From Halanaeroarchaeum sulfurireducens (GTDB lineage Archaea; Halobacteriota; Halobacteria; Halobacteriales; Halobacteriaceae), in contig NZ_CP008874.1 in NCBI RefSeq assembly GCF_001011115.1, positions 1,054,001-1,118,000 on the forward strand: DNA of 64,000 nt, read 5' to 3'. How positions within the stretch are numbered: the stretch's first letter is position 1; each line of letters starts with the position of its first letter. Below the pieces are notes generated by a model. The model was given only the letters and a program-made list of their open reading frames with translations. It made no database searches and was not told the DNA's origin. Positions 2,898 to 49,145 of this stretch are shown in pieces. The translations under genes were made by a program, and so were the position numbers.

Positions 2898-3467
2898 TTA
2901 CTTGGGGTCAGGCTTGACGCCAACGAGCGTATAGACGAACCCCCGCTCCTCCACGATCGTATCGAACCCGGCAGCGTCGAGGACGCCGTCGAGTTCGTCG
3001 ACCGTGTAGAACGTGGAGGCGAATCCGACGAGGCGCTCCCCAGCGACCAGCGCCGTTCCACGAAGGGTGTCGGGATCGAATTCCCTGACGACGAAGACGC
3101 CGCCCACGGCGAGAGTCCGGAAGACGTCCTCGACGACCGTCGGGACGGCTGGGAAGTGATGGACCGCGTCGACCGAGATCACGGCATCCAGGGACGCATC
3201 CGGGAAGGGAAGGTGTCTGACGTCGCCCCGAATCGCCGCCATCCCCTGGTTCCGGGCTTTTCGTAACATCCCCTGGCTGCCATCGAAGACGATCGGCTCG
3301 TGCGCCAGGGCGCGAGCGGCCCGTCCGGTTCCCCCGCCAAGGTCTACGAGCGTCGAAAGGTCCCGCTCTGCGTACGAGAGTCCATCGTCCAGGGGTTCGC
3401 GAGCGGTGCCGGGCAGCAGGGCGTCGTAGATGGGAGCCACCCGGTCGAAGACTGGGACGTCGTGCAC
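2898..3467 (-). CDS. Class I SAM-dependent methyltransferase
   Basis: The 189-residue protein has the Rossmann-type methyltransferase motif I LVDLGGGTGRAARAL (about residues 40-54), an acidic strand-2 region (VFDGSQGML), and the motif IV region VISVDAVHHF. This is the UbiE/Methyltransf_11 type. It is convergent with the MFS gene, with 17 bases between stops. The methyl acceptor is unknown. Confidence 0.8.
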   Translation of the reverse strand: MHDVPVFDRVAPIYDALLPGTAREPLDDGLSYAERDLSTLVDLGGGTGRAARALAHEPIVFDGSQGMLRKARNQGMAAIRGDVRHLPFPDASLDAVISVDAVHHFPAVPTVVEDVFRTLAVGGVFVVREFDPDTLRGTALVAGERLVGFASTFYTVDELDGVLDAAGFDTIVEERGFVYTLVGVKPDPK

Positions 3468-37875: not shown

Positions 37876-38298
37876 ATGAGTCGGATACTCGTGCCGGTGG
37901 ACGGTTCGGAGCACGCTGAAAACGCCTTCGAATACGCAGTTGAGCACTTCCCGGAGGACGACATCGTCGCGTTACACGTGATCGAACTGCCGGAAGGATA
38001 CTTCGCAGCGTTCGCGGAGGACACCGAGTCACTGCCGCAAGTCGAGGATGCAAAGGAGCGAGGCCACCAAATTTTGGGCGATATCGAATCGCTCGCAGCG
38101 GACCTCGACGCCGAGGTCGAGACCGAGATCATCTCCGGAAACCCCCCGGACAAGATCCTCTCGTACGTCGAGGATGAGGACGTAGACGAGATCGTAATCG
38201 GCAGTCGTGGGCTATCGGGCGTCGGACGGATTATGTTCGGGAGTGTTGCCGAACAGGTCGTCCGCCGGTCGGAAGTTCCCGTGGTCGTGGTTCACTGA
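37876..38298 (+). CDS. Universal stress protein (UspA family)
   Basis: The 140-residue protein shows the UspA fold: RILVPVDGSEHAENAFEYA at the N-terminus, VALHVIELP, and the ATP-binding loop IVIGSRGLSGVGRIMFGSVA (G-2x-G-9x-G-S/T) near the C-terminus. Such proteins bind ATP and act in stress response, usually as cytoplasmic dimers. It stands alone with its own TATA box, and its target is unknown. Confidence 0.92.
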   Translation: MSRILVPVDGSEHAENAFEYAVEHFPEDDIVALHVIELPEGYFAAFAEDTESLPQVEDAKERGHQILGDIESLAADLDAEVETEIISGNPPDKILSYVEDEDVDEIVIGSRGLSGVGRIMFGSVAEQVVRRSEVPVVVVH

Positions 38299-38335
38299 CC
38301 GGAAACTCTTGGGACTTATTGGCGGTTTCTGTCGT

Positions 38336-39529
38336 TCAGAATCGGTCCGCGATCATGGAGGCCGCCGCTTTTCCCGTGCGGGCGGCCGTATTGAAACTCG
38401 GATAGTAGGCGAAGTCGCCCGCCAGTAACACGTTATCCGAATACTGGAGATCGGGGATCGATGCACCCGGCCGAATTCTCGGCGTCGTGGGTATCACGAC
38501 GGAATCGAGCGTTTCGGGCTCGTCCCGATAGACCTCGGCGACGTCGATCTCGTCTTCTCTATCGCGCACGTACGCGTGATGTTCGTCACCGACCGCGATC
38601 ACACTCCGCAGATTGTAGTCATCGTCTCCGCCGATGAGGAGGTTCACGTCTTCTTTGATGTCACCCTCCACAGTCACCGTCCGTGTCCGATTGAACTCCG
38701 TTCCGAAATCCGCATCGAGAATCTCGGCGGAGATATTGATGGGTGCTGCCAACACGGCATAATCGAAGGTCTCCTCGGCACTATCGCCGTCCCGGCGGTA
38801 CTGAACGTGGACCTCGTCTCCATCCTCACGGACATCCGTCACCTCGGCTCCATCGACTAGACGCTCCGGTGGCAATTCTGCCTGGAGCCCCTCCACGAAG
38901 TCGTATTGGCCGTTCGGGAGAACGAAGGCCCCCTCCCGAACCATATTCACGACCTTCTTCAACGAAGCGGCCGATCTGTCAGCACTCGTCTCCTCGAAGT
39001 GATCGTCGTAGGTCATCGCTCTCAGGGTGGGCTCGATGAGCATCTCCCTGAGATCCTCGCTATATTGGTCCATCCACTCCCGAATCGACTGGTCGTGGAG
39101 TTCCTCGTTCTTTGGCCCGCGGTCGAGGGGGTCGAAACGCACGTCTCCCAGATTATCGTGAAACTTCCGAACAGACTCGCGATCCAGCCCGACCATCGGG
39201 GCGAATATCCGTCGCATCCCTTTCTCGAGGAGGGACAGGTCACTCCGAGGTGTGAGGAATATCTCCATCTGGTCGAACGTCGTTATCTCGCCATCCTGAA
39301 ACGCGCCCATCTCTTCGAGGGGGAGTGACTCGACGGTGTCGTCCAGTCCGAAGTCCGATGCGAGCTCTAGAATGGCTTCGTCGGTTGCCGAGATGATCTT
39401 TGCAGTGTCGGACACTTCTCCGTCGGTAACCTCACGTTTTTCGAGTACGTGGGCTTCGATATCATATTTGTTGAGTTCGTGGGCGCACGCGATACCCGCG
39501 ATACCGCCACCGATAACGGCAACTCTCAT
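38336..39529 (-). CDS. FAD-dependent amine-oxidase-like oxidoreductase
   Basis: The 397-residue protein begins with an FAD dinucleotide-binding motif VAVIGGGIAGIACAHELN and an acidic strand-2 end (VLEKREV). It ends with the family's FAD-binding C-terminal segment (VLLAGDFAYYPSFNTAARTGKAAASMI). The layout is that of the protoporphyrinogen oxidase / phytoene desaturase / monoamine oxidase superfamily. Substrate is not evident; a role in carotenoid or haem chemistry is possible but not supported by neighbours. Confidence 0.8.
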   Translation of the reverse strand: MRVAVIGGGIAGIACAHELNKYDIEAHVLEKREVTDGEVSDTAKIISATDEAILELASDFGLDDTVESLPLEEMGAFQDGEITTFDQMEIFLTPRSDLSLLEKGMRRIFAPMVGLDRESVRKFHDNLGDVRFDPLDRGPKNEELHDQSIREWMDQYSEDLREMLIEPTLRAMTYDDHFEETSADRSAASLKKVVNMVREGAFVLPNGQYDFVEGLQAELPPERLVDGAEVTDVREDGDEVHVQYRRDGDSAEETFDYAVLAAPINISAEILDADFGTEFNRTRTVTVEGDIKEDVNLLIGGDDDYNLRSVIAVGDEHHAYVRDREDEIDVAEVYRDEPETLDSVVIPTTPRIRPGASIPDLQYSDNVLLAGDFAYYPSFNTAARTGKAAASMIADRF

Positions 39530-39638
39530 GACTGTGATTTTCTCTCATTATTCTTGATATATGTTCTGGGATGGAACGAGTCAGTAAAAAATAAGTTACG
39601 CTAGTTCGGTATGTTGTGCCGAACGTGATCCAGAGAGG

Positions 39639-40325
39639 ATGACGGAGCAGTTACGACGACGAGACGTCCTGGGTGCTGGTGTCGCAACTATCGCCACCGT
39701 CGTGGCAGGGTGTGCTGGCGATACCGATGCGGACGAGTCACCCCAGGAAACGACCACGGAGCAGAGTACAGGTACCGAAACACAGACCGATTCACCACAG
39801 ACTGATACCATGCCTTCGACGATCCTCAACGGCGACATCGAACAGAAAGGCGAGTTGACCCTGTCGAGCCCCGATTTCTCCGACGGCGAACGGATGCCGG
39901 ACTGGGTCGGCTACGCGAACGACAACGACAATCCGGAACTCGAGATCAGCGGAGTTCCCGACGAGGCCGAATCGCTCGTCCTGGTCGTGGACGATCCCGA
40001 CGCTCAGCCCGTGGCAGGACATACCTGGGACCACTGGTACGCCTGGGACATCGATCCCGACATCGGAACGATCCCCCGTAACTGGGACGGCGGATCGGCA
40101 ACTGAGGGACACAACGACTTCATCGAGTACGGCTACGGCGGCCCCTCTCCGCCCGAAGGGAGTCACGGGTACCGGTTCAAACTCGTCGCCATCGACGCCG
40201 AACTCGGCGTTCCCGCCGAAACGCGCAAAACGCGTGTCGGCTCCGCCATCGCCATGAACGCCGAAGTGCTGGCAAGCACGCAGATCGTCGGTGACTACCA
40301 CGCCGAACAGGGGACCACGTTCTAG
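39639..40325 (+). CDS. PEBP / Raf kinase inhibitor-like Tat lipoprotein
   Basis: The 228-residue protein has a twin-arginine lipobox signal (RRRDVLGAGVATIATVVAGC, lipid-modified Cys at about residue 27) and a Thr/Glu-rich linker. The YbhB/YbcL PEBP domain follows: TLSSPDFSDGERMPDWVGYA, LVLVVDDPDAQPVAGHTWDH, and YGGPSPPEGSHGYRFKLVAI with the ligand-binding His/Asp. It is exported folded and anchored outside the cell membrane. PEBP function in archaea is unknown. Confidence 0.85.
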   Translation: MTEQLRRRDVLGAGVATIATVVAGCAGDTDADESPQETTTEQSTGTETQTDSPQTDTMPSTILNGDIEQKGELTLSSPDFSDGERMPDWVGYANDNDNPELEISGVPDEAESLVLVVDDPDAQPVAGHTWDHWYAWDIDPDIGTIPRNWDGGSATEGHNDFIEYGYGGPSPPEGSHGYRFKLVAIDAELGVPAETRKTRVGSAIAMNAEVLASTQIVGDYHAEQGTTF

Positions 40326-41398
40326 GACTCCCCTGACGGGGGCGGTTCCCCCTCATCCCGACGTACCGGTTCATCACACAACGGTTCGATTCCGTATTTT
40401 TCGATGACCTCGGCAGTGACGTTTTCGACCTCCGCCAGGTGGACCAGTGGATTGCCGGGAAAGACGACGGGATTTTTCAGAATACCCACCAGCAAGCCGG
40501 TGAAGGGGGCCCGAATCGTGTCTGTTCCCCGCTTGAACGGACTGGTAATCCGACAGATGATCTCTCCCTCGTGGACCAATTCTCCACGTTCCTTGCGCAT
40601 GTCGACGATTCCGCCCGAGTTAGAGCGGAGCCACGTGCGCTCACCCCAGCCCTCGACGATCGTCCGCCAGCCCGGCCAGCGGACCACCTCGTCCGGATAG
40701 ATACCGTATTCGGCGAAGATACTCCGAACGCCACGGAACGCCTCGTCGATACAGCTCTGTTCGAATCGCCTCGCCTCTCCCATCTCGATTGTGATCGTCG
40801 GGATACCGTTCTCGGTCGCTTCCCGCCGGAGTGTCCCCTCCTGGCCCTCTCCGTCGAGGATAACGTTCGCTCCGAACGCCCGTGCGAGCCGTGCCGTTTC
40901 CTCGGTATCCATATCGGCACGAATGTGGAACATGTTGGTCCGCCCTCTCGTCGACGTATGGAAGTCGAGGCCGAAGTCACAGGGCTGGATGAAGTTCTCG
41001 TAGATGTGGTAGGCGATCCGGTGAGCAGACGTGCTGTCGGGGTCGCCGGGGAACGCTCGGTTGAGGTCTCGATCCGTGACCGGAAGGTACCGCTGCTGGG
41101 TGGTAAACCCGGGCACGTTCAGGACCGGCAGGCCGACCAGACACCCGTGAATCTCCTCGTGATCCCACTCGTCGACGACGCGGCGGACCACTTCCACGCC
41201 ATTCAACTCGTCTCCGTGAATCGCCGCCGAGAGGAACACCGTCGGGCCCGGTTTGCTTCCATTGACAATCGTCACGGGCATATCGACCGGGTCACCGAGA
41301 TACCACTCCCCAACCTGATGCTCGAACTTCGCAGTCTGGCCCGGCCGAACCACGCCACCTTCGTATTCGAAGGAATCGGATTCGTCTTCGATTTTCAT
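40322..41398 (-). CDS. Succinylglutamate desuccinylase/aspartoacylase family protein
   Basis: The 358-residue protein is an M14-like zinc amidohydrolase. Its zinc motif is SAAIHGDELNGVEVV (His 61, Glu 64), and the third ligand lies in FGLDFHTSTRGRTNMFH; ENGIPTITIEMGEARRFE carries the general-base Glu. It removes an acyl or carboxyl group from an amino acid-type substrate. It shares the strand with the small gene and the ATP-grasp gene upstream, so they may form one unit. Its substrate cannot be read from the sequence. Confidence 0.82.
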   Translation of the reverse strand: MKIEDESDSFEYEGGVVRPGQTAKFEHQVGEWYLGDPVDMPVTIVNGSKPGPTVFLSAAIHGDELNGVEVVRRVVDEWDHEEIHGCLVGLPVLNVPGFTTQQRYLPVTDRDLNRAFPGDPDSTSAHRIAYHIYENFIQPCDFGLDFHTSTRGRTNMFHIRADMDTEETARLARAFGANVILDGEGQEGTLRREATENGIPTITIEMGEARRFEQSCIDEAFRGVRSIFAEYGIYPDEVVRWPGWRTIVEGWGERTWLRSNSGGIVDMRKERGELVHEGEIICRITSPFKRGTDTIRAPFTGLLVGILKNPVVFPGNPLVHLAEVENVTAEVIEKYGIEPLCDEPVRRDEGEPPPSGES

Positions 41399-41463
41399 CG
41401 GTTATTCCTCACGTGTTTCGTCCGTCCACGACGCTGTTACAGCGTCTACTGTTGCGGTGTCGT

Positions 41464-41811
41464 TCATTCTGCCCCCGGGTCGGAGTTGGTCTGGGTCGAG
41501 CCCTGGTCGTCTCCCGGCTTACTCTCCTCCGACCGTCTCCTCTTCGTCTCTGGGGCCCGTCCGGTGATAAATGGGCTCGTTCGACCACCGGTCGGCTGGC
41601 GTCGTACCACACGGACGGTTTCGTCGCCCGCGAACGTGTCGGTCTTACCGTCAAGGGCAAACACTCTCTCGCCGCCGACCAGGGGGAGTGCCTCCTCCGT
41701 CACGAACGGAACACCTTCTGGGGTAACGAGCGGTCCGGCGAGTGGCTTCGGTCGATGCGGTGGCGTCACGGCCGGTCCGAACGTCGGGTCGGTTCGTACG
41801 ATCGTGTACAT
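41464..41811 (-). CDS. Small hydrophilic protein between ligase and aspartoacylase genes
   Basis: The 115-residue product has an N-terminal beta-rich part (GGERVFALDGKTDTFAGDET) and a charged, disordered C-terminal tail ending DPGAE. I do not recognise a family. It sits between the ATP-grasp gene (30 bases upstream) and the aspartoacylase gene on the same strand. It could be a component or a substrate of those enzymes, but this is a guess from position. A start at 41835 is also possible. Confidence 0.5.
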   Translation of the reverse strand: MYTIVRTDPTFGPAVTPPHRPKPLAGPLVTPEGVPFVTEEALPLVGGERVFALDGKTDTFAGDETVRVVRRQPTGGRTSPFITGRAPETKRRRSEESKPGDDQGSTQTNSDPGAE

Positions 41812-41841
41812 TTGGTGGTGGCTCTCGAATGGCACGGGTGA

Positions 41842-43068
41842 TTATAGGCCATACCGGTTGGCGAGCGCTTCTCGGTCGATTAGATCGGGGATGCCAGGTT
41901 CGAATGGCCCCGAGCGGCTCACGCTCCTCCCGTACGCGAGCAGGTTTGCTGCCGAATCCCATCGGAGTCCCTCCCGACCACGGGTGAGCGCGTTGACGTA
42001 CCGTTCTTTCGATCCCGGCGAAAGATTGCCCTCACCGAACACCAGGTACTCACCCCTCTCGGTTCGGTACCGTTCCTTCAGGAGGCCTTGCAGGACGTCG
42101 TCCGGGACGGCCTCGAGGCGGCTGTCGTCGGGATCGACGACGAGGAGGTCCCACCCGATCCAGGTGTGTAACCGGTCGGACGACTGGGCCGCCAGGGCTG
42201 CCAACTCGTCGTGCAGGTCGGCGACGGCACGTTCGACGGCCGGGTCGACACCTGGCATGTCCATCGGTTCGACTGCACCTCGCTCAAGAAGGGTCGCGGT
42301 GGCATCGCGTAGCGTGGAAGCGCCGGTATCCACGATGTTCAGGTTACTCTTGTCGGTGTTCGGATCGCCGAAGCGGTTTTCCCCCGAGATCGGGGTCCGT
42401 CCCGCCGCGATCACGCGTTTATCGTATCGGTGAGGAACGGCATACTGGAGCAGGAACTGCTCCGGCGCGTCCAGAAACGGGTCGGGTGCCGCGTCAGTCG
42501 CCCAATCCTCGAGAAACCCATCCACACCCCCCGGATAAAACCAGATGCCCCGCCCCTGCGTCGAGGCGCGCGCCTTCAGTACGAGGGGGGCGTCCGCGAT
42601 GAAGTCCTCCGCCAACGCATCCATTGTCGGTTCGCCTCCATCGCTGAGATAATAGTCGATCGGTTGCCACGGCGGAACGGCGAGGGCCGTGTCGTACAGT
42701 TCCCAGTACTGCATGGCTTTGTCGCCAAGAAATCGCGGGATCGGGGCCGGGTTGATCACCTTCACCGCCGTTTCACAGAGGTCTACGTACTTTCTTCCCA
42801 TGGCCCGTCGGAACGTCGACGTCGGAATGATCGTCAATTTACCGAGCCCCCGTTTCTCCAGCGTCGCGTTGATCTCCGCCAGTGCCATTCCGCCAACGAC
42901 GAGTGACCCATCGTCGGTGAACCGGATTCCGTCCTGCTGGAGGCCGATCTTATTGATGACGCCGAGATCGACCAGAGTCTGCTTTCTGTTGTTGAGTGTC
43001 GCCGTCACACTATTGACACCCACTGCAAATCCGGTCGGTGTATCGAACCTGGCCAATCCCTCGATCAC
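41842..43068 (-). CDS. Alpha-L-glutamate ligase-like ATP-grasp protein
   Basis: The 408-residue protein resembles RimK-related alpha-L-glutamate ligase-like proteins: GVNSVTATLNNRKQTLVDLG, PLVLKARASTQGRGIWF as the ATP-grasp nucleotide loop, QYAVPHRYDKRVIAAGRTP, and GWDLLVVDPDDSRLEA as the metal-binding C-terminal part. ATP-grasp ligases join a carboxylate to an amine through an acyl-phosphate. Here the product could be a glutamate or other amino acid amide on a protein or small molecule. It is divergent from the CofE-like gene and upstream of the aspartoacylase gene. Confidence 0.72.
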   Translation of the reverse strand: MIEGLARFDTPTGFAVGVNSVTATLNNRKQTLVDLGVINKIGLQQDGIRFTDDGSLVVGGMALAEINATLEKRGLGKLTIIPTSTFRRAMGRKYVDLCETAVKVINPAPIPRFLGDKAMQYWELYDTALAVPPWQPIDYYLSDGGEPTMDALAEDFIADAPLVLKARASTQGRGIWFYPGGVDGFLEDWATDAAPDPFLDAPEQFLLQYAVPHRYDKRVIAAGRTPISGENRFGDPNTDKSNLNIVDTGASTLRDATATLLERGAVEPMDMPGVDPAVERAVADLHDELAALAAQSSDRLHTWIGWDLLVVDPDDSRLEAVPDDVLQGLLKERYRTERGEYLVFGEGNLSPGSKERYVNALTRGREGLRWDSAANLLAYGRSVSRSGPFEPGIPDLIDREALANRYGL

Positions 43069-43278
43069 AACGTATTACTAGTCAAGCAGTTACCAAGATA
43101 TAGATTGTGGCCAGTCTGGCTGCGTTCGGAATACAGGCACTTCATTCGCATCTTTCCAAATGGCGATGCCGGTTGTGAACTGTTTTTGACCGACTCCGTC
43201 AGGAAGAACCGATACGATATCTCCTCGACCCCTGTGGAGGTGAGGTTTGATTTACCCGGAACACGAAGGATAACTCAC

Positions 43279-44133
43279 ATGTCCGAACTATCGTTTCGGG
43301 GGATAGATATCGGCCGAGTCGAACCGGGCGAGGACCTCGTAGAACCGCTCGTCGAGACGACGAACGACGAATATCCCCTGCAGGACGGGGACGTGGTCGT
43401 CATCACGTCGAAGGTCGTTTCGACGGCTGAAACCCGTTTTGTCGCGGCCGACAGCGTGACGGTGACCGATCGTGACGAGCGTGTCGCCGACGTGACCGGT
43501 CTCGATCCCCGCGAGGTCGCCGTCATCTACGAGGAAAGCGAGGTTCTGGGGGCCATACCGGTCGGAGACATCGGAAAAGATCTCCTCCTGGAGCAGGCAG
43601 TCGACACCGAGACGGCCGAAGAAGCCATCGAGCGGATGCCCGCTGCCCTGTTGACCGATCGAAACGGTCGGCTTTGCACGAATGCGGGCGTCGACTGGTC
43701 GAATTCTCCCGAGGGAATGATGACATTACTCCCCGAGGACCCCGACGCGAGCGCACGCGAAATTCGTGAGCAATTAGAAGACCGCACCGGGGCCGATCTT
43801 GCGGTGATCCTGGCCGATTCAGAGATCATGGGGTCCGGGTCGATGGACCTCGCCGTGGGTTGTTCCGGCATCGAGGCGATCGATAGCAACTTCGCTCGAA
43901 CGGATCTCTACGGGGAACCCAAGGTCGGAGGAGTGGATCTCGTGGCCAACGAGATCACCGCGGGCTCCGCTCTGTTGTTCGGCCAGACTGACGAGCGGAT
44001 TCCGGTCGTCGTCGCCCGCGGGCTCGACTATGAGGACGGCGAGGGTGTACCGAACGCCGGGGGACTGATCCGACGGGGGCTGCGAAAAACGATCCAGTTG
44101 ACGACCCGATTGAAAGCCCGTGAGTGGTTTTAA
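43279..44133 (+). CDS. CofE-like F420-0:L-glutamate ligase family protein
   Basis: CofE adds glutamates to coenzyme F420. The 284-residue protein has LQDGDVVVITSKVVSTAETR, NGRLCTNAGVDWSNSPEG and the DS-containing ILADSEIMGSGSMDLAVG. In classical CofE the last region reads close to DTxGRPWRxG, so this copy has lost the RPWR segment. It is also about 30 residues longer than usual. The start at 43279 gives a good N-terminus. It may be a real CofE or a paralogue with a different substrate; its ATP-grasp neighbour favours the latter. Confidence 0.7.
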   Translation: MSELSFRGIDIGRVEPGEDLVEPLVETTNDEYPLQDGDVVVITSKVVSTAETRFVAADSVTVTDRDERVADVTGLDPREVAVIYEESEVLGAIPVGDIGKDLLLEQAVDTETAEEAIERMPAALLTDRNGRLCTNAGVDWSNSPEGMMTLLPEDPDASAREIREQLEDRTGADLAVILADSEIMGSGSMDLAVGCSGIEAIDSNFARTDLYGEPKVGGVDLVANEITAGSALLFGQTDERIPVVVARGLDYEDGEGVPNAGGLIRRGLRKTIQLTTRLKAREWF

Positions 44134-44204
44134 TTCATCTCTAGGTTATCGTTGATTCGAAATCAATGCCAAAATTAATAAATTCAATCCAACATCAATT
44201 CCAT

Positions 44205-44645
44205 ATGCCCTCTCGCCGTCAACTACTGTGTGCGAGTGGACTGGCGCTTGGCGCCACCTTCGCCGGATGTTCGGCCGTCCCTGTCCCCCGTCCAAAACTG
44301 GATTTCGCAATCGATAATGCTCGTTCAACAACCGTCCCAGTCGATATCAGGTTCTTCCGACCGGATATCGCAGAGCGAAGTGAGGCCCTAGTCTATCAAA
44401 ACACGGTCGAGGTGCCACCCCGTGACAATCCGGATGACCTCTGGCAAGTCATGGATGTGGCACCCGATCGCCGATATCGTATCAAACTCCTCGTCGGAAG
44501 CCCCTCCAAATCGCACCATTATCACTACCATCCGGACTGCTCGGACGACAACCCGTATGATATTGGCGCCGTGGCAAACCTCCTTCAGGGCGGCGGCGTT
44601 AGATTTACCCAAACCACGTGTTCAGACGACGAACCCTTCCTGTGA
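44205..44645 (+). CDS. Tat lipoprotein, unknown function
   Basis: The 146-residue protein starts MPSRRQLLCASGLALGATFA with the twin Arg, and a lipobox Cys (FAGC) follows at about residue 22. A beta-rich domain comes next, containing a histidine cluster SHHYHYHPDC and four later cysteine-poor strands. It would be an exported membrane-anchored lipoprotein, perhaps metal-binding because of the HHYHYH run. The AT-rich lead before the ATG marks the beginning of the accessory region. Confidence 0.6.
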   Translation: MPSRRQLLCASGLALGATFAGCSAVPVPRPKLDFAIDNARSTTVPVDIRFFRPDIAERSEALVYQNTVEVPPRDNPDDLWQVMDVAPDRRYRIKLLVGSPSKSHHYHYHPDCSDDNPYDIGAVANLLQGGGVRFTQTTCSDDEPFL

Positions 44646-44700
44646 CGGATATATCCTCGGTATCGAGCGGGTGCCACTTTTGTTAACTGCGCTTCTCTGG

Positions 44701-44727
44701 TGAATGATATGCGCTATCAATTTAGCA
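44701..44727. repeat. 27-nt imperfect palindrome, single copy f
   Basis: A 27-base unit ending ATTTAGCA, with TGAAT-type left arm and central ATGCGC. It belongs to the same family as the paired elements at 45106-45199, 46003-46096 and 46621-46714. Two mismatches sit in the right arm (ATTTAGCA against ATTCAGCA). Its partner 67 bases away was not recognisable, so it is a solo or decayed copy. Confidence 0.55.
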
Positions 44728-44801
44728 CAGATATATTGACATTGACTGAGTAGGTTTGAATTCTCTTTGTAACTCCGGAGGGGCAATCCGTGAGACAGCT
44801 T

Positions 44802-45008
44802 CTAATTGCCTTCAGTCCGGTTCTTGCTCCACCAAAATGCAATCAGAACAAAGGCAAATCCTTCGAGTCTGGCGAGTTTGTATACCCACGGCTTAAACTC
44901 GAATGTTGCCTCCTCCGTCGTCGTAATATCCATCATGTAATCTATGACTTGTCTTGGGAAGAGCAATTCAATAAGACCAAAGACTGCCAAAACGATTCGG
45001 AGTATCAT
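44802..45008 (-). CDS. Small two-helix membrane protein
   Basis: The 68-residue product has two hydrophobic helices (about 3-20 and 45-62) separated by a short charged loop, and starts MILRIVLAVFGLIELLFPRQ. It is a small membrane protein of unknown function. A longer open frame upstream to 45164 runs through the repeat element at 45106-45199, so the internal ATG at 45008 is taken. The gene sits alone between palindrome f and element M1. Confidence 0.5.
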   Translation of the reverse strand: MILRIVLAVFGLIELLFPRQVIDYMMDITTTEEATFEFKPWVYKLARLEGFAFVLIAFWWSKNRTEGN

Positions 45009-45105
45009 AGTCCAAAATTTTGCCGCCGCCAGCAAATAATCAGCGAGGATTCTACCGGTCTGAAAACAAGTGTGTTTGTTACCATCCCCTCCACAATGTG
45101 CGCAT

Positions 45106-45199
45106 TGCTGAATTCGCGCGTTGTATTCAGCAACGATCGAATGTTTCCATCCGGCTGATGACAAAAACTGACTGCTGAAGATAGACCATCAAGTCAGCA
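45106..45199. repeat. Paired palindrome element M1 (94 bp)
   Basis: Two 27-nt imperfect palindromes at 45106-45132 and 45173-45199, start to start 67 bases apart. The left copy has perfect 8-base arms TGCTGAAT and ATTCAGCA. The right copy begins TGCTGAAG and ends GTCAGCA, and is roughly the inverted form of the left. The 37 bases from 45116 to 45152 are almost identical to 46013-46049 (two differences). Confidence 0.75.
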
Positions 45200-45312
45200 G
45201 AGGTTCTACCGTCATCTTCGGGAAAAGCAGACGAGGGGTGATTTCAGGAATTTTCATTCGACACCTGGGGTGTCGTCCGCTCAGCGGATCGTGTAGCATG
45301 ACGAGTAGTAAT

Positions 45313-45663
45313 TCACAGACTGAGGCTGTTTTTGATCGCAGCATCGATCTTCGCCATTCGCGTTGCCGGCACCGACCCGATATTTTTCGTTACTCGTTTG
45401 CTAATATCGACAACACGGATCTGACTGAGATCGGCCACCGAATCGTGATTGAGAGTAGTGTTCGATGCAAGGACTTCCACCTCAAACGGGTAGATGTCAG
45501 TGGGATCGTATTGCTTCGTGAAGGGGGCGACGATCGTCGTTGGGGAGTGCTGGTTGCCAACGTCGTTTTGAATAACGACACAGGGCCTATTCGAACCCTG
45601 TTGCTCACTCCCCTTCGTTGGATTCAATTCGACAGTGACGATGTCTCCGCGACGCACCTTCAC
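45313..45663 (-). CDS. mazF: MazF-type endoribonuclease toxin
   Basis: The 116-residue protein has the MazF/PemK core: RRGDIVTVELNPTKGSEQQG, NRPCVVIQNDVGN, TTIVAPFTKQ and LSQIRVVDISKR, with the conserved catalytic Arg and Thr. It cleaves mRNA when freed from its antitoxin. It follows the AbrB-type antitoxin gene after 3 bases. Type II toxin-antitoxin modules of this kind are common on mobile DNA. Confidence 0.9.
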   Translation of the reverse strand: MKVRRGDIVTVELNPTKGSEQQGSNRPCVVIQNDVGNQHSPTTIVAPFTKQYDPTDIYPFEVEVLASNTTLNHDSVADLSQIRVVDISKRVTKNIGSVPATRMAKIDAAIKNSLSL

Positions 45664-45666
45664 AGG

Positions 45667-45936
45667 TCACTCGCCCCACTCGGGAGCATCCCCGAGTCGA
45701 TCGGTTGCTTCTGCTGACGTTCCTTCCATCTCTTCGACCAGCTGCCGAGACCGGTCTGCTCTTTTCTTGTATCCTTCCGCTAAGCGCTCTTCGTCCGTCG
45801 GTGGCTTGATGATGATCTCGTCGTTAACTTCGATGAACCTAATCTCGTCGCCACCTTCGATCCCGCGGCGGTCGCGGAGCTCTTTCGGGATGGTGACTTG
45901 ACCTCGATCACCGACTTTACGGGTATGTTCTGTCAT
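45667..45936 (-). CDS. mazE: AbrB/MazE-type antitoxin
   Basis: The 89-residue protein has the swapped-hairpin AbrB DNA-binding domain: VGDRGQVTIPKELRDRRGIE with GDEIRFIEV, followed by an acidic, unstructured C-terminal tail of about 45 residues that would bind the toxin. It most likely represses its own operon through the direct repeats just upstream of its ATG. It is transcribed before mazF with a 3-base gap. Confidence 0.9.
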   Translation of the reverse strand: MTEHTRKVGDRGQVTIPKELRDRRGIEGGDEIRFIEVNDEIIIKPPTDEERLAEGYKKRADRSRQLVEEMEGTSAEATDRLGDAPEWGE

Positions 45937-45941
45937 ATGGA

Positions 45942-45960
45942 TTCATACTTTTTTCATACT
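45942..45960 (-). promoter_or_regulatory. Direct repeats before mazE (probable operator)
   Basis: The sequence AGTATGAA (plus strand TTCATACT) occurs at 45942-45949 and 45953-45960, 11 bases apart, close to one helical turn. It lies 6-24 bases before the mazE ATG. AbrB-type antitoxins bind such repeats to repress their operon. Confidence 0.55.
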
Positions 45961-46002
45961 ATTAGTGTTGTCGGTGCCTGCCGACTTGTAGAACCAGTCA
46001 CG

Positions 46003-46096
46003 TGCGAGATATGCGCGTTCTATTCAGCAACGATCGAATGTTTCTATCCAGATACTATCAAAACCTGCCTGCTGAACTTAGAGCGCGAATGCAGCA
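46003..46096. repeat. Paired palindrome element M2 (94 bp)
   Basis: Two 27-nt units at 46003-46029 and 46070-46096. The left begins TGCGAGATATGCGCG and ends ATTCAGCA; the right begins TGCTGAAC and ends AATGCAGCA. The inverse of the right unit closely matches the unit at 53459-53485 (about 24 of 27). The element sits 66 bases before the mazE start codon, with the same spacing as M3 before the next gene. Confidence 0.75.
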
Positions 46097-46119
46097 CACC
46101 TGTACGATCTGATTGACGA

Positions 46120-46554
46120 TCAGGCGACTGTATTGGTTTTTCCAGCGGCGAATTGGCGACCCCGACGGAGGATGACGCCGACCCCAAACGCGATGACGCC
46201 AAGTAATAGCGCCAACGGAACCCACATTTCCCACGCGCCGGCTCCGCCGAATGATAGCGGGAGTGCGACGGGAGATGGCTGATCAAGGTAGAGCCACCAG
46301 TAGTACGTCAGCCTGGCGATCACCGGTGCTAACACGAGGATTACGCTGATTGCGAGCCCACTATTGTCATAGGCCCACCAACTCGCCAGCACCAATCCGG
46401 CGATGACGAGTGCTGGCTCCACGATTGCACCCACAGCAACCGGTAGGAACGAAATGATCAGAATGAGCGCGGAGACGCCCACCGCCAAGAGAACTCCCTG
46501 TAACGACCGATCCTGGTCGCTTCCGAGCAGTGCGGTACGGACGTCGATCTCCAT
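46120..46554 (-). CDS. Four-helix membrane protein, unknown function
   Basis: The 144-residue protein has four hydrophobic segments (about 20-40, 46-64, 68-85 and 108-128) and a short basic C-terminus, giving a compact membrane protein with short loops. I recognise no family. It is the sole gene between elements M2 and M3, with M3 66 bases before its ATG. Confidence 0.55.
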   Translation of the reverse strand: MEIDVRTALLGSDQDRSLQGVLLAVGVSALILIISFLPVAVGAIVEPALVIAGLVLASWWAYDNSGLAISVILVLAPVIARLTYYWWLYLDQPSPVALPLSFGGAGAWEMWVPLALLLGVIAFGVGVILRRGRQFAAGKTNTVA

Positions 46555-46620
46555 ACGTCCACTTCAATCGTGAGTGGTATATCTCTTGTTCAGACCCGAA
46601 TTACGGCAACGTGGACGGCT

Positions 46621-46714
46621 TGCTGTATCCGCGCTCTCAATTTAGCAGGCACAACACCTAACTATGCAGATTATGTCAGTAGCGTCCTACAGGATATAGA
46701 GAATGAGTTCAGCA
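46621..46714. repeat. Paired palindrome element M3 (94 bp)
   Basis: Left unit at 46621-46647 (TGCTGTATCC...ATTTAGCA) and right, more decayed unit at 46688-46714 (ends GAGTTCAGCA), again 67 bases start to start. It lies 66 bases upstream of the ATG of the membrane-protein gene ending at 46120. Confidence 0.65.
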
Positions 46715-46868
46715 CGGGCGGATGCGGTTGGTTTAGATAATTGCTTACAAAATCCGAACGTAGTTCATCTAATGACAGTCGCCATCCACCGTGTACAATG
46801 GAAATGGGAGGATATCAACCGGAGCGCTGCGGTCGAAAAGTGGATTCACCAATTACTCGCGACCCACC

Positions 46869-46943
46869 TTAATCGCTGCGGCGGAGTGCCAGCAGCGCAG
46901 TCAGACCCAACAGCGCGAGCAGAAAGGTTATAATTTCTGAAAA
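46869..46943 (-). pseudogene. Orphan C-terminal membrane anchor
   Basis: The minus strand reads TFLLALLGLTALLALRRSD and then TAA, with a TAG 24 codons upstream. A hydrophobic helix capped by two Arg at the extreme C-terminus is the anchor of haloarchaeal surface proteins (PGF-CTERM-like region). Nothing of the rest of such a gene is visible, so this is a leftover fragment. Confidence 0.55.
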
Positions 46944-47031
46944 CTATTGTTAAACGTAACGGATGAGGCATCCAGCAATCCACACACTTGCTGAGACAGC
47001 AGTCGATCTACCGAATGAGGAGCAATAAGTA

Positions 47032-48486
47032 GTGCGACATCGCATCCTCGCCGGTGGGTTCTCGCTTCTTTTGATCCTGTCCGCGATATCTGTGGCCGTC
47101 CCAGTAACGGGGTCAATCTCCAACCTTGCGATCGAATCGGCAACTCCGTCAGTTGAAGACCCAGCACCGGGTGAACGATTCTCCGTCTCGGTCACGATCG
47201 CAAACCACGATGCGACAGAGGCGGTCGAAGTGACTGACGTGTATATTCGTGACGCTGGAAGCGCGAACACGCACGTTCGTGTTGACGACGTTGGAACGAT
47301 TCGGCCAGGAGGGACTCTTTCTGTACCACTGTCGCTCATGTTCGACGATGCAGGGACCAAGGACCTTCGAGTCCATACCAGAGTCGAAAACGAAAGTGGA
47401 GATTCACGCTCGATCACCTATCCGCTCACGATTGACGTTGAGCCTCCGGACAACGCGATTTTGACCGTGGACGACGTAGATGCAGTCGCCGGACAGGAGG
47501 AACATGTGAATGTCACCGTATCCAACGGTGATGACCGGTCACTCTCCAATGTTAGACTCGAACTCACCGGCGACGCCGTTGTAGACAACGCCGAACGGGT
47601 CACCGCCTCGCTGGATGCGGGTACCCAGGTTGTCCACGGTTATGATGTAACGTTCCCAGAACCGGGCAGACAGTCGATCACTGGGACGATCACTTACAAA
47701 ACGGCTGATGGCATGACACGATCGATCAACCGATCGGTGACTCTGGATGTCGCACCTGCACGGGTGGATCCGGAACTCACCGTGACACCAATAGAATCGG
47801 AGAGAGGTCCGGCCCTTGAGGTCTCCCTTACGGAGTACGGAAACGCCGAATTGCGAGATGTCGGGGTTCGAGCACTCCAAAACGGTACTGTGGTGGCACG
47901 GACCCTCTTGGAAGATGTGCCCGCTGAGGAAACGCGAACGGCTACACTCGACGACACAGACCTCGGAGATGGAAATATCTCAGTAGTTGCTTCGTACACC
48001 GCCGCAGGGACGGAGCGGACGATCCAGACGTCGCGTTTGTACCAACCGACTGAGTCGGCTTCCGTGGTTCTCTCGGGTGTCGAAGCCACCCGCGATGGCT
48101 CGATAGTCACACTCCGTGGGGATGCCGCAAACGTCGGAAGTAGCGACGTGGAGTCCGTGCTCGTCGCAATTGAGCCGGTGGCGGGAGTCACTCCAACGTC
48201 GCCGAATCGGGACTACTTCATTGGCGGGATCGAGGCGAGCGAATTTGGGACCTTCGAGCTCACGGCCAATGTCACGGACACGACTGAGACGGTCCCGGTT
48301 CGAGTTACCTACTCGGCCGACGGCGAGCGGTTCTCCCAGGTAGCTCCCGTCGAACTCGATGGAGCGGCCGCCGAGGCGGGCTCCGATGAGGAGTCCACTT
48401 GGGACCGTATTCGGCTACTGGAAATGGCCATAGTTGGTCTCGTCGTTGTCCTCCTCGGGGCGGCGTTGTATCGCTGGCGCACATGA
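47032..48486 (+). CDS. Secreted CARDB-type protein linked to an ABC transporter
   Basis: The 484-residue protein starts at GTG with a Sec-type signal (about residues 1-30) and ends with one helix (LLEMAIVGLVVVLLGAALYRW) and RT. Between them are three or four beta-sandwich domains with the COG1361/CARDB pattern of repeated (E/D)xxxV...V.N strands (for example LEVSLTEYGNAELRDVG). It is membrane-anchored and faces outside. Its stop overlaps the start of the ABC ATPase (ATGA), so it is part of that transporter operon. The likely role is as an external partner, as in MacB-type systems. Confidence 0.78.
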   Translation: MRHRILAGGFSLLLILSAISVAVPVTGSISNLAIESATPSVEDPAPGERFSVSVTIANHDATEAVEVTDVYIRDAGSANTHVRVDDVGTIRPGGTLSVPLSLMFDDAGTKDLRVHTRVENESGDSRSITYPLTIDVEPPDNAILTVDDVDAVAGQEEHVNVTVSNGDDRSLSNVRLELTGDAVVDNAERVTASLDAGTQVVHGYDVTFPEPGRQSITGTITYKTADGMTRSINRSVTLDVAPARVDPELTVTPIESERGPALEVSLTEYGNAELRDVGVRALQNGTVVARTLLEDVPAEETRTATLDDTDLGDGNISVVASYTAAGTERTIQTSRLYQPTESASVVLSGVEATRDGSIVTLRGDAANVGSSDVESVLVAIEPVAGVTPTSPNRDYFIGGIEASEFGTFELTANVTDTTETVPVRVTYSADGERFSQVAPVELDGAAAEAGSDEESTWDRIRLLEMAIVGLVVVLLGAALYRWRT

Positions 48487-49145
48487 GCATCATCGAACTT
48501 GAAGGGGTCGTCAAGGAGTATCAAAGTGGGTCCGAAACTATCGAGGCTCTGAAGGGCGTCGATTTTTACGCTAACCGGGGCGAGATGGTGACGGTGATCG
48601 GCCCCTCGGGATCAGGCAAGAGCACGATGCTCAATATGACCGGACTCCTTGACACGCCCACCGAGGGTATCGTTCGGCTGGAGGGCGTTGACGTCTCAGC
48701 GCTCAGTGAGGACGAACTCACCGAGAAGCGCCGTTCGGGAATCGGCTTCGTGTTCCAGGACTTTCACTTGTTGCCGATGCTCACCGCGGTCGAAAATGTC
48801 GAATTGCCTTCGATGTGGGACACCAGTGTTGACCGGCACGGACGGGCAATCGATCTGCTGAAGCGAGTAGGGCTCGAGGACCGGCTCGACCACTTACCCA
48901 GCGAGCTTTCCGGTGGACAACAACAACGGGTCGCTATCGCACGGGCACTGATCAACGAGCCGAAAATCCTCCTCGCCGACGAGCCGACTGGGAACCTCGA
49001 CCAGGACACCGCCCGAACCATCCTGGCTGAGCTCACGCGACTCAAGACCGAGGAGGACATCGCGATCGTTGTCGTGTCACACGATGAACTGCTGATGGAG
49101 TACGCCGACCGGACAGTCGAACTTATCGACGGGGTGATTACGTGA
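48483..49145 (+). CDS. ABC transporter ATP-binding protein (MacB/LolD type)
   Basis: The 220-residue protein has Walker A VIGPSGSGKSTMLNM, the signature LSGGQQQRVAIARAL, Walker B KILLADEPTGNLD, and an H-loop VVVSHD. The GNLD D-loop and the short length are typical for the LolD/MacB/FtsE-like group. It powers the permease encoded next, whose start overlaps its stop by 4 bases. Confidence 0.92.
   Translation: MSIIELEGVVKEYQSGSETIEALKGVDFYANRGEMVTVIGPSGSGKSTMLNMTGLLDTPTEGIVRLEGVDVSALSEDELTEKRRSGIGFVFQDFHLLPMLTAVENVELPSMWDTSVDRHGRAIDLLKRVGLEDRLDHLPSELSGGQQQRVAIARALINEPKILLADEPTGNLDQDTARTILAELTRLKTEEDIAIVVVSHDELLMEYADRTVELIDGVIT

Follow-up and report, generated by a model that had tools for sequence, protein, structure and literature searches.

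A rare ATP-grasp-type ligase beside an aspartoacylase-family hydrolase in Halanaeroarchaeum sulfurireducens, possibly a partner swap within the RimK/aspartoacylase pairing of haloarchaea

Results

Two of four neighbouring genes may form a ligase/hydrolase unit

In a 64,000-nucleotide stretch of the Halanaeroarchaeum sulfurireducens genome (the window), the gene for an ATP-grasp-type ligase stands beside that for an aspartoacylase-family zinc hydrolase, and these two may form a functional unit, a partner-swap variant of the RimK/aspartoacylase pair of haloarchaea. We hold this view tentatively and put its probability a little below even. A sequence-only reading of the same DNA had proposed a larger amide-making and amide-breaking system, in which a CofE-like gene and a small open reading frame (ORF) also took part; the ATP-grasp and hydrolase genes survive from that proposal, and the other two have dropped out of it.

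All four reading frames were present at the place and on the strands described, the CofE-like gene on the plus strand and the other three on the minus strand (Table 1). The CofE-like gene was taken to start at 43279 and not at 43105, because all its full-length relatives align from there. The hydrolase and ATP-grasp genes share one strand and are separated by the small ORF, which starts 6 bp after the ATP-grasp stop codon, and by a 65-bp gap.

Table 1. Features of the locus, in window positions
Feature	Position	Strand	Size and basis
AstE/aspartoacylase-family zinc hydrolase	40322..41398	-	358 aa; Pfam PF24827 AstE_AspA, 158 bits; conserved active-site residues
Small ORF, orphan	41464..41835	-	123 aa; putative gene; C-terminal part disordered-looking
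ATP-grasp-type ligase, very rare undescribed family	41842..43068	-	408 aa, GTG start; motifs, single 62% identical relative
Intergenic region from which the ATP-grasp unit and the CofE-like gene diverge	43069..43278	.	Reading-frame coordinates and the CofE-like start of relatives
CofE-like paralogue, subfamily distinct from F420 CofE	43279..44133	+	284 aa; PF01996 over the whole length, 172 bits
Island or rearrangement, non-collinear with sister species G242	38299..48614	.	Synteny; holds all four genes

An ATP-grasp-type family with two known members

Judged from its sequence, the ATP-grasp-like protein represents an undescribed and very rare family that is new to the databases searched. No match was obtained in Pfam, NCBIfam or PDB, and scans with its one relative, taken to E 10, likewise returned nothing meaningful. 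This single relative is encoded on contig L005 of a metagenome-assembled haloarchaeon. Further members were found neither in overlapping samples of 391 haloarchaeal genomes and 393 genomes of the phylum, the genus mate G242 included, nor, beyond L005, in a pattern search of contigs from 84,980 species or in plasmids, phages and viral contigs. Weak matches in G200, which ran antisense to a CDC48-like gene, and in G166, where no gene was plausible, were dismissed as chance, and a match in G309 turned out to be PurK and was rejected as a family member.

The protein was compared with a published list of ATP-grasp superfamily features (PMC4431377). The linker lysine before the RAGNYA domain corresponds to K117 in LGDKAxQY, which is invariant in both members. 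The second lysine and the glycine-rich loop (ssxGbGl) are represented by K165 and ASTQGRGI, of which the lysine and TQGRGI are invariant, and the acidic residue and metal-binding ExN of the kinase-like half by D307 and E346-G-N348, again invariant. The [E/D]xR motif typical of the clade that forms peptide bonds is also found in both members, as D216-x-R218. An ordered and spaced pattern of such motifs matched 23 stop-free frames in the sampled DNA (haloarchaeal RimKs, two further ATP-grasps of the source genome and the window family) and none of 14,730 shuffled frames; since the pattern had been loosened twice until it caught known ATP-grasps, this third, partly tuned version counts as supporting and not as independent evidence. 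A profile built from the two sequences matched PurK weakly (E 0.006) but in the correct position, precisely in the DK...VPPF...LKAR...GRG region. AlphaFold2, run on the two-sequence alignment, reached a pLDDT of 36, and the fold assignment therefore rests on the motifs. Identity with RimK was not supported: neither member matched PF08443, and hhalign against haloarchaeal RimK was not significant.

On L005, the ATP-grasp gene directly abuts a gene for a creatininase-family amidohydrolase (PF02633, 227 bits; stop at 3365, start at 3366), and neither an aspartoacylase-type hydrolase nor the small ORF was found on this contig. Both known members thus adjoin a metal amidohydrolase, but of different families, and with two members and different hydrolase neighbours a conserved linkage lies beyond statistical proof. 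The L005 pair directly follows ribosomal protein genes at positions 1-1990 (S5, L30 and L15, identified by eye), which may reflect either an insertion or a join made in assembly.

The hydrolase family is usually paired with a RimK-RimB-type fusion

The window hydrolase keeps the active-site residues H61, E64, N113, R114, H147 and E205 and, these included, 131 of 144 conserved columns. Its relatives of solved structure are 3cdx, 3na6 and DoeB (6twm/6twl). With DoeB, an N-acetyl-diaminobutyrate deacetylase (TIGR02994), and with AstE and AspA it has family and active-site residues in common, but it scored far below the NCBIfam equivalog cut-offs for all three (92.6 vs 402.7 bits for DoeB, 28.1 vs 305.65 for AstE and 34.5 vs 180 for AspA), and no ectoine or arginine-catabolism genes were seen adjoining it.

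Close orthologues of the hydrolase (58-68% identical) occurred in 224 of the 242 sampled haloarchaea, and the usual partner there was a fusion of RimK with a RimB-type protease domain (PF08443 + PF05618); E < 1e-100 served as the threshold for both counts. The fusion was detected in 221 genomes, every one of which also had the hydrolase, while 18 genomes had neither, three had the hydrolase only (G109, G167 and G183) and none had RimK only. Fisher's test gave p = 2e-24 for this co-occurrence (n = 242, kinship ignored), a value that is overstated because related genomes are not independent; the absences were spread across several families. Among the 99 genomes with both positions listed, the hydrolase lay within 8 kb of the fusion in 92 and less than 2 kb from it, start to start, in 57. 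The same divergent pair was present at two annotated plasmid loci. Nearly all sampled haloarchaea thus retain the aspartoacylase-family hydrolase and the RimK-RimB-type fusion together as a gene pair. That an ATP-grasp gene next to an aspartoacylase-family hydrolase gene is a meaningful combination, as proposed from the sequence, was borne out by this usual adjacency to RimK and by the ATP-grasp/amidohydrolase pair of L005. No paper on the haloarchaeal pair was found in the literature searched; an earlier mention in the amidoligase comparative genomics of Iyer et al. 2009 is possible.

Second-copy hydrolase/RimK loci were observed on accessory islands and plasmids (L121, L122, L085-L093). HTH regulators and, nearby, genes for redoxin, TauE, aldehyde dehydrogenase or DsbA-like proteins are frequent there, and a redox or sulfur link of these loci is possible. 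A role in thiol metabolism, suggested by redoxin, DsbA-like and dihydrolipoyl-dehydrogenase genes near some of the plasmid hydrolase loci, was rejected for the window, where such neighbours are absent.

The hydrolase has been lost beside rimK and occupies a new position

Synteny showed that the hydrolase gene has disappeared from its place beside rimK and stands at a new position. In the sister species G242, it is divergent from rimK and flanked by the sdh (succinate dehydrogenase) operon on one side and by an HhH-GPD gene on the other (L117). Both flanks and rimK recur in the source genome, where the rimK-adjacent hydrolase is missing; between the aligned blocks, about 240 bp stand in its place (L112 8394-8636; G000:C1 at ~1529.4 kb), with just tiny matches to the G242 gene region. 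The RimK fusion itself is intact at the ancestral site (G000:C1:1528058), and no gene of this genome other than the window hydrolase is a close copy of the RimK-associated hydrolase of haloarchaea. In the hydrolase tree, the window copy fell outside the clade containing the G242 copy (support 100/99); its branch is the longest of the family (0.55), which makes its exact place unsure.

Since the genome retains its RimK fusion, the window hydrolase may serve that fusion in trans, as a relocated or xenologous copy, the ATP-grasp being a chance island neighbour with an unrelated substrate. We regard this explanation as quite possible but on balance doubtful. It would account for an intact fusion in a genome with no other close hydrolase copy and for the preserved active site and conserved columns, and unrelated genes do gather in lineage-specific islands. 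It agrees less well with the common strand of the hydrolase and ATP-grasp genes and with the amidohydrolase that directly adjoins the other member of the ATP-grasp family; the long branch of the hydrolase also suggests a changed constraint. On the partner-swap reading, the rimK-side hydrolase has been lost, as synteny shows, and, as we infer, a divergent copy arrived in, or moved to, the island beside a different ATP-grasp. The locus offers a natural experiment, in which a hydrolase parted from its own ligase now stands beside another.

Collinearity with the sister species is interrupted at the locus

Synteny between the window and G242 stopped at 38298, and from 48615 onwards the window matched another part of the G242 chromosome; the genes in between are therefore non-collinear with the sister species. 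The corresponding place in G242 lacks this ~10-kb stretch with the window hydrolase, which may be a genomic island of recent origin or a rearrangement. The G+C content of the window is 0.597, compared with 0.61-0.69 where the genome was sampled elsewhere.

A MazF/PemK toxin and MazE antitoxin pair is encoded at 45313-45936 on the minus strand, and an 84% identical relative of the toxin occurs elsewhere in G242 (G242:C1:1479002). The low-G+C segment 44711-46647 contains imperfect repeats, with an 84-nt pair at 45116 and 46013 and 17-nt copies at 44711, 46013 and 46631, which are possibly remnants of a mobile element.

The locus could also be read as a degenerate island, a set of recent acquisitions that have no joint function and are in part nearing loss. 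This is consistent with the restriction of the stretch to this species and the lower G+C content of the window, with the MazEF module and repeated remnants nearby and with the partial or truncated state of the CofE-like copies in three genomes (G069, G234 and G114). All three enzyme genes in the window are nevertheless full length, with intact key motifs and a normal coding signal, and we consider this reading distinctly unlikely.

The CofE-like gene and the small ORF stand outside the pair

The CofE-like gene is a paralogue and a separately inherited neighbour outside the ligase/hydrolase pair. It scored below the TIGR01916 equivalog cut-off for F420 CofE (166 vs 180.65 bits). With CofE, the coenzyme F420-0:L-glutamate ligase, it shares PF01996 and the core motifs NAGVDxSN and LLPEDP; in comparison with the canonical cofE of the source genome (33.6% identity) it has an N-terminal insertion and a different C-terminus and has lost the GRPFR loop. 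The lack of an RPWR segment, noticed earlier from the sequence, was confirmed and could be specified: canonical haloarchaeal CofE has GRPFR at this site, and the window copy and its aligned relatives show a deletion and different residues there. A second, canonical cofE, the search for which had been suggested, was located 700 kb away at G000:C1:398742 (243.7 bits). This canonical copy stands C-terminally in an open frame of 640 aa (L084 5558-7480), a putative fusion.

Members of the CofE-like subfamily (59-81% identity) had a patchy distribution, being present in about 14 of the 242 haloarchaea besides the source genome, and none of these genomes contained the ATP-grasp. Their neighbours varied, from a CNNM/CBS transporter gene in one genus to oleate hydratase in Natribaculum and peroxiredoxin with cytochrome bd in Halomicrobium. 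In G223, the 81% identical sequence makes up the C-terminal portion of an open frame of 770 aa (L070 6837-9149), which may be a fusion or merely an unbroken upstream frame. The sparse occurrence, the varied neighbourhoods and the presence of a canonical cofE spoke against including the CofE-like gene in the system, and a survey of gene neighbourhoods across haloarchaea refuted the four-gene set, as the four genes were not neighbours elsewhere.

The small ORF gave no meaningful Pfam or NCBIfam match and had no relatives in the plasmid collection or in the loci compared. Its coding score was 0.098 per codon (-0.017 in the C-terminal part), compared with 0.22-0.40 for its neighbours; the weak signal and the missing relatives leave its status as a gene unsure. 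The idea that its product is a glutamate acceptor was not supported, for the same two reasons and because the ORF is absent from the operon of the L005 relative.

Glutamylation by the whole set, with the ATP-grasp, the CofE-like ligase and the hydrolase adding and removing glutamates on a cofactor or at the C-terminus of the small protein, is thus highly improbable, and the four-gene version was rejected on distribution. The genes are physically close, the CofE core motifs are kept and the last residue of the small protein is Glu; in Pseudomonas, moreover, a C-terminus gains Glu through RimK and loses it through RimB (PMC11957791). These points are outweighed by a CofE-like subfamily that recurs in varied contexts and meets the ATP-grasp in the source genome alone, by an ATP-grasp that is not a RimK according to Pfam and NCBIfam, and by the orphan, weakly coding small ORF with no counterpart at the relative's locus.

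Discussion

In the proposed unit, the ATP-grasp enzyme would most likely use ATP to turn a carboxylate into an acyl-phosphate and couple it to an amine, yielding an amide or a bond like that of peptides; the chemistry of the superfamily and the D-x-R signature point to this reaction. The zinc centre of the hydrolase would cleave an amide of the N-acyl amino-acid type, so as to recycle the product or to trim a precursor. The substrate that both enzymes would share is probably an acylated amino acid or peptide of small size, and neither the CofE-like gene nor the small ORF would be needed. In mammals, RIMKLA/B and ASPA act in N-acetylaspartyl-glutamate and N-acetylaspartate metabolism. This combination of an ATP-grasp RimK-type ligase and an aspartoacylase working on related N-acyl amino acids is eukaryotic and may serve as an analogy only.

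A farther-reading interpretation, which we consider rather unlikely, is that the window protein founds a new ligase family which, alongside a zinc amidohydrolase of the aspartoacylase type in the window and of the creatininase type in L005, would constitute an undescribed haloarchaeal pathway of amide making and breaking or of ligation followed by trimming, a natural partner swap of the functionally uncharacterised RimK-fusion/aspartoacylase pair.

In Pseudomonas, glutamates are attached to a ribosomal protein by RimK and taken off it by RimB, and hybrid RimBK proteins also occur; the survey that described them covered bacterial accessions (PMC11957791). Like RimK/RimB and the RimBK hybrid (Pseudomonas, Desulfotalea; PMC11957791), the proposed unit couples an ATP-grasp peptide-bond ligase to a hydrolytic enzyme. 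It differs in that the window ATP-grasp matches no RimK model and has no RimB domain, and in that the hydrolase is a zinc enzyme of the aspartoacylase family and not a retropepsin. In haloarchaea, the partner of this hydrolase family already unites RimK with a RimB-type domain in one protein; the protease domain is C-terminal in it, whereas it is N-terminal in the reported RimBK (PMC11957791).
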